Part shown: piece by piece, positions 23,787 to 30,745 of the stretch
Position numbering within the stretch: the first letter of the stretch is position 1
Layout: every line of letters starts with the position of its first letter
Notes under the pieces: model-generated
The model's input: the letters and a program-made list of their open reading frames with translations, nothing else
Told to the model about the DNA's origin: nothing
The model's database searches: none
Program-made: the position numbers and the translations under genes
Assembly (NCBI GenBank): GCA_021789815.1
Contig: JAJYIZ010000003.1
Location: 1-44,899 of the forward strand
DNA from: Microcaldota archaeon
GTDB taxonomy: Archaea; Micrarchaeota; Micrarchaeia; Micrarchaeales; Micrarchaeaceae
DNA length: 44,899 bases
Direction of reading: 5' to 3'

Positions 23787-24317
23787 TTACGATGCCTTCA
23801 GTGTTGCGCTAGCCATCTGAGCGAACTGCTGCCCGCTTACAGTAGATGTTGTGTACTCAGCCCAGATCACACCGCTGTATGTTGACCCGACAGTGCTCGA
23901 GAATGCTGTGCCGCAGCCGATAGTGCCGCCGGTTATCGTAGCTGGCTGTGTGAACGATATTGTTACCTGCTGCGTTGGGGTTATCGCGTTTGCAAATGAG
24001 TAGTAGACGCATGCCGTGAGCGCGTTTGGTACAGTGCTCGGCACGCCACCTCCAGTAACGAAGAATATGTTAGCCGAAGTCCATGTTGTTCCTGTGTCTT
24101 GCGCCACTATGAAGTTTGCCGTTCCTGAATGCAGAATCGGTCCTGTGCAGAAGTAAGCAGAAGCCTGTGTGCATGTGTTGCCGATCGGACTTGTCACAAT
24201 TCCTAGAGAGAACAGTGCACCGAGAACTATAGAAATTATGAGTATTGCCCAACCATAGGTCATCAGGTACTCCATAGCGCTTTGCGCTTTAATTTTAGGC
24301 TTGAAGGTCAATGTCAC
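23787..24317 (-). CDS. Type IV pilin/archaellin-like protein with class III signal
   Basis: 176 aa. The N terminus KPKIKAQSAMEYLMTYGWAI, then a hydrophobic helix to SLGIV, is a class III signal peptide: basic stretch, processing after KA/QSA, then a long helix that packs in a filament core. The mature domain is small, Thr/Ser/Gly-rich and beta-like, with four cysteines (NTC, YFC, TAC, IGC) that could form two disulfides. The substrate of a FlaK/PibD-type peptidase is expected, but no peptidase, ATPase or TadC-like gene is nearby. It is divergent from glutamate dehydrogenase; a TTTTTATAG element upstream fits a promoter. Confidence 0.85.
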   Translation of the reverse strand: MTLTFKPKIKAQSAMEYLMTYGWAILIISIVLGALFSLGIVTSPIGNTCTQASAYFCTGPILHSGTANFIVAQDTGTTWTSANIFFVTGGGVPSTVPNALTACVYYSFANAITPTQQVTISFTQPATITGGTIGCGTAFSSTVGSTYSGVIWAEYTTSTVSGQQFAQMASATLKAS

Positions 24318-27871: not shown

Positions 27872-27881
27872 GCAAACACGA

Positions 27882-27964
27882 CGCCGAGGCTGGGATTTGA
27901 ACCCAGAACTCCTTTCGGAGCTAGGTTAGCAACCTAGTGCCTTACCAGATTAGGCTACCTCGGC
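27882..27964 (-). tRNA. tRNA-Ser(GCU)
   Basis: Folds as a type II tRNA: acceptor GCCGAGG/CCTCGGC with discriminator G, D arm, anticodon stem CTAGG/CCTAG around loop TTGCTAA (anticodon GCT), long variable arm CTCC-GAAA-GGAG, and T arm CTGGG-TTCAAAT-CCCAG. The long arm and GCU anticodon identify serine (AGC/AGU codons). No intron, and CCA is not encoded. Confidence 0.95.
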
Positions 27965-27998
27965 ACACTGTTATTTTCCATATTTGGTTTATTAAACA

Positions 27999-28260
27999 TG
28001 GCAGAAGCCGCCCTTGCACCATAAAGGCATAGAAAGTTGACTGCGCTTCTGCTCAGCTCTGTATCCCAAGAGCATAGATGTTATATGCTTAGGGTTGCTC
28101 CTTCCGGCCTGGCCCGGTTCACATATAAAGCTACCACCTGGGGCAAAACGTCGACGCTTCGACGCAGGCTTTATATGCCGACATAATACTTGAGCGGCAT
28201 TGGCCCGCCTGAAGGGATTTGCGGTGTGGGAGACCCTTAGCCCCCCGCCTATCTGCCGAT
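27999..28260 (-). ncRNA. ffs: Signal recognition particle RNA (7S RNA)
   Basis: The minus strand contains the helix 8 core GGCCAGGCCGGAAGGAGCAA at about 28093-28115, with flanks TTATATG/CATATAA that close the helix; this asymmetric-loop sequence binds SRP54. Next to it is a helix 6-like hairpin (CGTCGA-AGCG-TCGACG), and toward the 5' end a GC-rich Alu-type domain with GGCGGGGGGCTAAGG. The 5' GGCAGA and 3' TCTGCC ends can pair to form helix 1. Ends are estimates from this pairing and from the TATA box at 28279-28286. About 262 nt is slightly short for archaea. Partner SecY is in the window; SRP54 and SRP19 are not. Confidence 0.92.
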
Positions 28261-28286: not shown

Positions 28287-28340
28287 AGGTTTGGTAAATG
28301 TTTTGCAGTTTCTAGCAAAATTTTGATAGGAACAAAACCA

Positions 28341-28349
28341 TTATATATC
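28341..28349 (+). promoter_or_regulatory. TATA box of the HTH-array gene
   Basis: TTATATATC, centred about 37 nt before ATG 28382, predicts a leader of about 10 nt. It is back to back with the SRP RNA promoter. Confidence 0.5.
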
Positions 28350-28381: not shown

Positions 28382-30691
28382 ATGGAAAGAAGCGCAAGTG
28401 GGGGAACTAGTGCTACGGCCGCAAGTGGGACTGCAAAAGAGCTAGCAGACAATTCTCCTGAAGGTAAGGGATACTTTCTGCTTCAGTCGTTCGATGTGCT
28501 GCAATCTGTCGCTTTAGGTATACTAGAGAGGCATCCGAGAAACAGCCCGCCGATGTCTAGAAGCGAATTGGAAAGCAACCTTATGAAGGCATTGGACGTT
28601 GAACCGCTGCAGGCTAGGAACATAATCTACAGTCTAGAAAACAGGGGTGCATTAGGCAAATACAATGGCGGCGCGTTCTTGGACCTTGCCGACCATATAA
28701 GGGCTAATTGGACCACTCTTGAATCGACAAAACTGAGCGAGAGAGACATAAGAGATGCTGCAAGGGGTACTGTGCAACATTCTCAAGCAGGCCAAAACAG
28801 TGGCCATTGGAATAGGATTACAGAAGAAAATGTAGAGAGACCGCATAGGCCTGCGGCTAGCCAACCAGAACCTGCCCTAGAACCGGTAAGGGTTATGACC
28901 CTTGAACGAGTAATGAAATTCTTTGGAGCTTTCGCAAATTCGGGCAACAAACACATGATAGCAACGATGTTAGGGTTGAGCCCTGGTGAAGTTGACAGAA
29001 CCCTAGATGCATTCGATATAAATCAAATACCAAAGGAGAGGACAGAAAGGATTGAGATTGGAAGAAGAAAGATAGAGGAGTTTAAAAGGCGTGAGCTGGA
29101 AAGGGAAGAGCGGAGAATGCCACAACCGATTCAAAACGTGCAAGCGCCAAAACAACCCGTCCATGTTTCATCCCCATCTCACCAAACAGCTCCTCTAAAA
29201 GAGATACGTGAAATTCAACCAACTCATCAAGAGCAACATAGTACAGGAGTAAAAGTTCCTAAAAATCACAACCACGAAAGTGCAAGAAGGCTGATTGCTT
29301 CATGGGTGAAGCATGGAACGGATAGGACTAGCATCTCTGCTGAAACCGGACTAGAATATAGAGGATTATTAGGTAGACTTAGTAGGCTTGGTCTGCCGAA
29401 CCTACTCAATACGCCAGAAACAGTAGAACAGAGGGAAGAAGTTGCAAAGAGAGCAATTGAAAACCTTGAGAATACCGACGCTGGAAGAAAGGCAATAAAC
29501 GCAAGGTTGGGGGTTTTTTTCAAAGCGGTTGTAGAAGAAGATACTATTGATGGTGCGTGTGTTGCATCGGGAATTCCCAGGTCTACCGGTTACCAATACA
29601 GTAAAAAGTACTTTGGTTCTAGGATTATGCCAAAAGACAGGGCTGAAAGAGAAAGGATGGTAGAAGAAGCCCGCAAAAGAATTGCAGAAAGTGAATTGGG
29701 GGGAAGTGTAACGCCTCCAAACGCAGAAAAACATTCGGCCGTGCAAAGAGCCCCACCTCGAGAAAAGACAGAGCCGACAAAGAAGCAAAACGTAAAGCAT
29801 AAGAATGAGAAAGAAGTGAAGACCACCATGGTGCCTACACGAGCAGAGGGGGTAACAAACGAAGCAGTAGCTGCGTCTTGGGTCAAGCACGGGACAGACA
29901 AAAACCTAATGGCAAGCGACCTAGGCTGCCCAGCAATAAAGGTCTACCAGTATCTCTACAAACTGAAGCTTCCAACTAAGAATGCGGAGATACCAGAAGA
30001 TATGCACGACAGGCAGAGGATGGCGGACGAGGCGCTCGATATTCTCCAAGCAAGAGAAGCTCGCAGGGCAAAGCCCGAAGTAAAAACAGATACTAGACCA
30101 ACTGTTGCTAAGGAACCAGCACCTATAGGAAAATCAGGTGCTCCAAGAAAATTCTCTCCATCTGGGGCGATCGATGCTTATCAAGGACATGAGCGCTCTG
30201 TTACAAAAACGGCCGAAGCTACAGGAATGTCAAGGAGGACGGCTGGGCAGCTGCTAAAACAGCACGGGGCGCTGCTGAGAGAAAGAGCGAGCGGCGGATA
30301 CTTCATACCTACGCGCGATGCCTTGTGGCCTACCAACGGCAACAACGGATACAACCTAGATATAGCTGAGGGCCTCCACATAATTGACACGCAGGCTGAT
30401 AGGATTTCGGTCGCAGCGGAGCACTTAAACAACCCTGGGCTTAAGGAAATTTCTGGCAGGTTCAAAGGGCAGGTGGAGCAGCTGCACAAGGGTGTAGCTA
30501 GACTCGTAGAAGCTGAGAGAGTTAAGGTTGCAGGCAAAGAGCTCGATGTTGCGGCAAAGCAAATAGATACGGCTGTAAGGGGAGCGTCGCCAGAGATAGT
30601 TGGACAGCTTCTTAGAGAGAGATTAGATCCTGAGGTGCTCAAGGCGCTGAGCAGGGGAGCGAGAGAAAAATCTAGGTCTACATCTAGGTAA
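28382..30691 (+). CDS. Large protein with a tandem array of HTH-like modules, function unknown
   Basis: 769 aa, no known full-length family recognised. No TM helix or signal. About 30-105: winged-helix-like unit (SRSELESNLMKALDV, ARNIIYSLENRGALGKY). Then at least four related modules at about 172-240, 300-362, 370-437 and 492-560. Each has a trihelical HTH-like part, for example WVKHGTDRTSISAETGL or WVKHGTDKNLMASDLGC, followed by a charged helix built as P-x4-(E/D)R-x3-A-x2-A, for example MPKDRAERERMVEEARKRI and IPEDMHDRQRMADEALDIL. A fifth, shorter HTH lies near 595-632 (VTKTAEATGMSRRTAGQLLK). Pro/Gln/Lys-rich linkers join the modules. The C-terminal 655-769 is helical, probably oligomerising. 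Multivalent DNA binding is inferred. It is transcribed away from SRP RNA. Confidence 0.85.
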   Translation: MERSASGGTSATAASGTAKELADNSPEGKGYFLLQSFDVLQSVALGILERHPRNSPPMSRSELESNLMKALDVEPLQARNIIYSLENRGALGKYNGGAFLDLADHIRANWTTLESTKLSERDIRDAARGTVQHSQAGQNSGHWNRITEENVERPHRPAASQPEPALEPVRVMTLERVMKFFGAFANSGNKHMIATMLGLSPGEVDRTLDAFDINQIPKERTERIEIGRRKIEEFKRRELEREERRMPQPIQNVQAPKQPVHVSSPSHQTAPLKEIREIQPTHQEQHSTGVKVPKNHNHESARRLIASWVKHGTDRTSISAETGLEYRGLLGRLSRLGLPNLLNTPETVEQREEVAKRAIENLENTDAGRKAINARLGVFFKAVVEEDTIDGACVASGIPRSTGYQYSKKYFGSRIMPKDRAERERMVEEARKRIAESELGGSVTPPNAEKHSAVQRAPPREKTEPTKKQNVKHKNEKEVKTTMVPTRAEGVTNEAVAASWVKHGTDKNLMASDLGCPAIKVYQYLYKLKLPTKNAEIPEDMHDRQRMADEALDILQAREARRAKPEVKTDTRPTVAKEPAPIGKSGAPRKFSPSGAIDAYQGHERSVTKTAEATGMSRRTAGQLLKQHGALLRERASGGYFIPTRDALWPTNGNNGYNLDIAEGLHIIDTQADRISVAAEHLNNPGLKEISGRFKGQVEQLHKGVARLVEAERVKVAGKELDVAAKQIDTAVRGASPEIVGQLLRERLDPEVLKALSRGAREKSRSTSR

Positions 30692-30745
30692 CTCTTACTA
30701 CTTTAAATATCTGCCCGACAGTATATCTAATGAGATGGTGTAGCG

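Follow-up and report, generated by a model that had tools for sequence, protein, structure and literature searches.

Archaeal proteins that bind DNA through several HTHs on one polypeptide include Cbp1 and Cbp2, the CRISPR-array-binding proteins of Sulfolobales and Desulfurococcales (PMC10883916). In the best studied case, Cbp1 of Sulfolobales places three duplicated HTHs along one CRISPR repeat, and its HTH3 recruits the chromatin protein Cren7 (PMC10883916). Long DNA sites can be read in a simple, natural way by proteins with tandem HTHs, and a family in which a clear cassette recurs in different copy numbers lends itself to testing how such specificity evolves. Other HTH proteins such as PucR and those of the NtrC type carry a single HTH plus effector domains, and HTH folds can serve protein-protein or RNA contacts too.

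DPANN archaea have very small genomes. That of the Micrarchaeota archaeon studied here comprises 678,604 bases on 29 contigs and is ca. 90% complete (assembly figures). We analyzed a stretch of 44,899 nucleotides from this genome (contig JAJYIZ010000003.1, positions 1 to 44,899; hereafter the window), in which this strain, despite a genome of only ca. 0.68 Mb, has an additional gene of 2.3 kb. It encodes a multi-HTH protein, probably an accessory regulator that binds DNA and is rarely found. The 769-aa ORF that an initial annotation had called is present as described (Table 1). Its 3' neighbors are genes for eIF2-beta, eIF1A, Cdc6/Orc1, and an RNase P p30-like protein, while the SRP RNA gene lies divergently upstream. 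At 82.6 bits this RNA gene scores under the Rfam RF01857 gathering score of 96.5, so default annotation would miss it despite its conservation in congeners. Further away in the window, a Class III signal peptide (pilin-like) protein with a SAMEYLMTYGWAIL motif was recognized by eye at 23787-24317 on the minus strand.

Table 1. Features of the multi-HTH gene, its product, and its surroundings (window coordinates).
Feature	Position	Strand	Details
tRNA-Ser, beyond SRP RNA gene	27880-27965	-	
Archaeal SRP RNA gene, divergent upstream neighbor	27998..28259	-	Rfam RF01857, E 4.5e-18; also in congeners
26-bp near-palindrome GTTTCTAGCAAAATTTTGATAGGAAC, possible operator	28308..28333	.	11/13 pairs
TATA-like box of multi-HTH gene, TTATATAT	~28341..28348	+	about 37 bp before ATG; read from sequence
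Multi-HTH protein gene	28382..30691	+	769 aa, pI 9.5, 85 kDa; ORF, composition, homologue P0002
N-terminal domain, probable winged helix	28463..28756	+	residues 28-125; common to P0002
Module M1, HTH + tail helix	28892..29116	+	residues 171-245; z 9.1 to module Q1 of P0002
Module M2, HTH + tail helix	29270..29479	+	residues 297-366; carries ASWVKHGTD
Module M3, HTH + tail helix	29480..29701	+	residues 367-440; abuts M2; z 5.6 to M4
Module M4, HTH + tail helix	29852..30067	+	residues 491-562; carries ASWVKHGTD; AF2 pLDDT 93.4
M5, fifth HTH, unlike M1-M4, no tail motif	30152..30316	+	residues 591-645; weak Pfam HTH_23/UPF0175 matches
C-terminal region	30317..30688	+	residues 646-769; helix-rich by appearance only
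Retained TATA box region of eIF2-beta gene, TTTAAATATCTGCCCGACAG	30702..30725	+	matches promoter of empty-site congener L003

The protein is organized around four related modules, M1-M4, each of which starts with an HTH of three helices and continues through a loop into a long tail helix marked by "P-x-(D/E)-R". When the local scores of module pairs were compared to shuffled sequences, z was 16.6 for M2/M4, 5.6 for M3/M4, and 4.4 for M1/M3, while M1/M2 and M1/M4 are weakly alike (z ca. 2.3) and M2/M3 is not significant within the 769-aa protein alone (z 1.3). A profile made solely from the three modules of the relative P0002 (see below) matches M1 (E 3.5e-4), M2 (3.4e-7), M4 (1.4e-8), and the tail of M3 (E 1.6e-3), all as single comparisons, with a best E of 0.015 against five shuffles. 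There are exactly two copies of the WVKHGTD motif (residues 308 and 500), where the initial annotation had placed two identical copies at about 307 and 499. Around it, M2 and M4 have ASWVKHGTD in common, encoded with synonymous differences in seven of the nine codons, which indicates that the protein sequence was held since an old duplication. The same two modules are identical at 7 of 13 positions in helix 1 and at only 2 of 13 in the recognition helix, a divergence that suggests different sub-sites rather than copies of one site.

Structure prediction agrees with this picture. AlphaFold2 (AF2) folded M4 with an alignment of M1-M3 only at a mean pLDDT of 93.4 and a pTM of 0.80, with helices at fragment positions 2-12, 16-23, and 27-36 (HTH) and 50-69 (tail helix). 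Single-sequence AF2 of M2-M4 had low overall confidence (51.7), and the helices of M3 reached a local pLDDT of mostly 72-83 in such predictions. When the module was used for fold searches of the PDB with Foldseek, the matches were nearly all DNA-binding HTH proteins with PucR, VqmA, LysR, and NtrC nearest, none of them significant at E 0.001 or specially close to the module. The initial annotation had proposed at least four related HTH modules, each with a constant amphipathic tail, and the shuffle tests, the P0002 profile, and the AF2 fold bear this out; neither of the two outcomes that it had named as refuting, a lack of HTH folds or of significant repeats, was obtained.

The remaining parts of the protein are more individual. 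Weak Pfam matches (HTH_23 at E 0.0024, under Pfam's cut-off) support the fifth HTH that had been proposed. It is not a copy of the module, given that M5 showed no relationship to M1-M4 (shuffle z ≤ 2). No PDB relative of the N-terminal domain was found by sequence, and the C-terminal region, which likewise does not resemble the modules, has neither a notable Pfam or PHROGs match nor a counterpart in P0002. Linkers of ca. 50 aa precede M2 and M4, whereas M2 and M3 are contiguous. In three linkers the PQSTNG fraction is 0.39-0.51, and linkers C and D are basic. The net charge of several modules is close to zero (M2 -1, M4 0).

Among 301 genomes of the phylum, a protein search gave a weak match (E 1.9e-4) in G246 that led to P0002, a 400-aa protein of Candidatus Micrarchaeota isolate JOPF124 (JASHSJ010000019.1), which belongs to the same taxonomic family as the window genome. 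The N-terminal domains of both proteins align over 98 columns without gaps (20 identical; shuffle z 9.6), and P0002 shares the HTH and P-x-(D/E)-R tail module. It has three modules rather than four, is without M5 or the long C-terminus, and is encoded at another locus. In the reverse direction, a profile of the window modules recovered the first two P0002 modules clearly and the third marginally (E 0.05). With the same N-terminal domain and a different number of modules, the two proteins are a real family with variable module number, the variation for which the initial annotation had suggested a homologue search. No third convincing member emerged from searches with the module profile, P0002, or the N-terminal profile; the family is present in 2 of 301 genomes of the phylum, and what it tells about recognition helices comes from two members. 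Viral contigs, phages, plasmids, and GTDB genomes held no relatives besides P0002 in searches that reach fairly close relatives only. Weak profile matches in G009, G014, G068, G121, G136, G206, G261, and others were rejected as generic or spurious; those with a readable ORF were, named by eye, ArsR-like HTH proteins, a phage-like HTH protein, a glycosyltransferase, and primase-like, eIF2-alpha-like, and NUDIX/uracil-DNA-glycosylase-like proteins. The downstream neighbor of the P0002 gene at the end of its contig (L064, 11051-11572) is an orphan gene, for which a search of 59 further genomes, 13 of them from the same genus, gave no counterpart.

The multi-HTH gene is accessory, as is evident from its absence in all eight congeners, the empty site in several of them, its presence in so few genomes of the phylum, and its atypical GC3 (0.43 compared to 0.56±0.06). 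Its codon fit is the seventh lowest of 161 large ORFs. SRP RNA and eIF2-beta genes are separated by ca. 70-125 bp in the congeners L003, L004, L005, and L010, compared to 2.47 kb here, and the eIF2-beta promoter of L003 persists to the right of the multi-HTH gene, where its TATA box region probably marks the right boundary of an insertion. A different gene fills the same gap in L006 (863-1438) and L007 (909-1436), encoding a product of ca. 175-190 aa with MSLTTISRGKPPEDWP or a close variant, which makes this gap a variable spot. In L008, a gene similar to that of L006 and L007 lies upstream of eIF2-beta. The multi-HTH gene was apparently gained recently; patchy spread, empty sites, and atypical codons would fit gain by transfer, while loss plus fast divergence may be an alternative.

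Upstream, the multi-HTH gene shares a divergent promoter region of ca. 80 bp with the SRP RNA gene. The initial annotation had seen a gene standing alone with its own promoter; the former is supported, and the latter is putative, resting on the TATA-like box read directly from the sequence. Between the TATA boxes of the two divergent genes sits the near-palindrome, which may be a self-regulatory site. No further copy turned up in the assembly with as many as three mismatches allowed. We found six near-palindromes in the whole window compared to 0-6 in shuffles, and the chance of such a palindrome within a 120-bp promoter is ca. 1%, i.e., only mildly unlikely.

An array of repeated DNA in the organism's own genome, which the initial annotation had offered as target, finds no backing. 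No CRISPR-like or tandem array was detected in nearly the whole assembly (contigs C24, C26, and C27, i.e., L110, L112, and L117, read wholly as N and were left out of the scan), nor a repeat array near the multi-HTH gene, and the recognition helices of M2 and M4 differ. Cas1 is absent from this genome, the eight congeners, and the genome of P0002, while control genomes were positive. The sole sizeable tandem repeat of the own-genome scan was a duplication with a 297-bp period (L084, 3167-3709; 1.8 copies, 77% match).

We therefore arrive, with a probability of roughly 50%, at an accessory, sequence-specific DNA-binding protein whose modules read a single composite site or a handful of sites. 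The divergence of the recognition helices speaks more for a single long composite site than for a repeat present in many copies, and such a site agrees with the absence of Cas1 and, in nearly the whole assembly, of arrays. At least four HTH and tail modules, a probable winged helix, and the fifth HTH are strung on flexible P/Q/S-rich linkers, with each module expected to insert its own diverged recognition helix into the major groove and the tail helix to pack against or space the HTH. Single contacts that are weak would then sum to tight, selective binding of a long composite site or a few sites, an added-contacts principle as shown for Cbp1 that may apply here by analogy, as a similar design and not as Cbp1 itself. 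Occupancy at the composite site would control transcription or access there, possibly including self-regulation via the promoter palindrome; DNA binding, composite site, and regulation are all what we infer. The initial annotation had raised a new multivalent DNA-binding system. A multi-HTH and probably multivalent binder it is, but "new system" is too strong for a lone gene when tandem-HTH DNA binders such as Cbp1 are known (PMC10883916). Instead, the 769-aa protein and P0002 form a new family, rarely encountered, within a type of protein that is already known. We consider it doubtful that they represent an undescribed class of modular archaeal DNA-binding proteins in which specificity changes as the HTH and tail cassette is duplicated and its recognition helices diversify, and which spread as single accessory genes among CRISPR-less DPANN to act on a long site in the DNA of invaders or the host.

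Several other readings draw on the same observations. Patchy spread, empty sites, and atypical codons would also suit a protein for replication, partition, or control that was captured from a mobile element or virus and binds several of its iterons or a composite origin or centromere site, as would the orphan gene adjoining P0002 and the weak likeness of M3 to the HTH of phage terminase small subunits. However, the surroundings of the multi-HTH gene showed neither an integrase or replicase gene nor att repeats or further genes of such an element, no repeat array lies nearby, and the viral, phage, and plasmid searches, within their reach of fairly close relatives, were empty, which leaves such an origin unlikely, if worth serious attention. 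Multiple HTHs, long linkers that are partly basic, and the high pI could instead describe an architectural (nucleoid) protein, with low-specificity HTHs bridging distant DNA to compact or loop the chromosome. Yet the modules show no marked basic charge and have diversified recognition helices, and a gene missing from all congeners and nearly the entire phylum does not encode a core chromosome organizer; we regard this role, which the initial annotation had raised as a chromatin organiser, as unlikely.

The shared divergent promoter with its palindrome could point to a local regulator of SRP RNA and/or the downstream eIF2-beta, eIF1A, and Cdc6 genes. These are core genes that congeners regulate without the protein, though, P0002 is encoded in another genomic context, and the retained eIF2-beta promoter suggests that there is no operon link, making local control quite improbable. 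Least credible is true membership in the Cbp1/Cbp2 family as a CRISPR-repeat binder. Duplicated tandem HTHs in an archaeal host would match, and the solved structure that the module profile matches best by sequence is 2lvs (E 1.2e-4), which we take to be Cbp2, but this match covers a 27-residue generic HTH core with unrelated HTHs close behind (E 0.016-0.1), and the missing Cas1 and the lack of arrays in nearly the whole assembly speak strongly against it.

Compared to known systems, the composite-site binder that we favor has partial counterparts of different kinds. The C-terminal HTH of PucR (Pfam HTH_30) shares the HTH core, but its best score, for P0002 (E 1e-4, 22.4 bits), falls under Pfam's curated cut-off of 27 bits and PucR has no tail-helix repeat, so membership was rejected. 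Fis/NtrC-type HTHs likewise share the core (NtrC1 rmsd 1.3 over 37 columns). The phage terminase small subunit HTH (phrog_4102) matches M3 over the HTH and the next helix (E 0.0032), though only one of four modules and with no packaging genes nearby. For mad1 of the MADS defense, the match is confined to 27-48 residues of the HTH (E 8e-4 and 2.9e-4) and the neighbors are housekeeping genes, and it was set aside. Unlike Cbp1 and Cbp2, the 769-aa protein is much larger, has linkers before M2 and M4 that are not short, adds a tail helix to each module, possesses an N-terminal domain as well as a fifth HTH unrelated to the others, and resides in a host without Cas1 or a detected array; its likeness to them in sequence is limited to the HTH core. 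Like them, it is archaeal and carries several HTHs that arose by domain duplication, four related modules in this case; module number varies in both families, between three and two for Cbp1 and Cbp2; and the alignment of their domains along one extended site is the design that we propose, in similar form, for the 769-aa protein.
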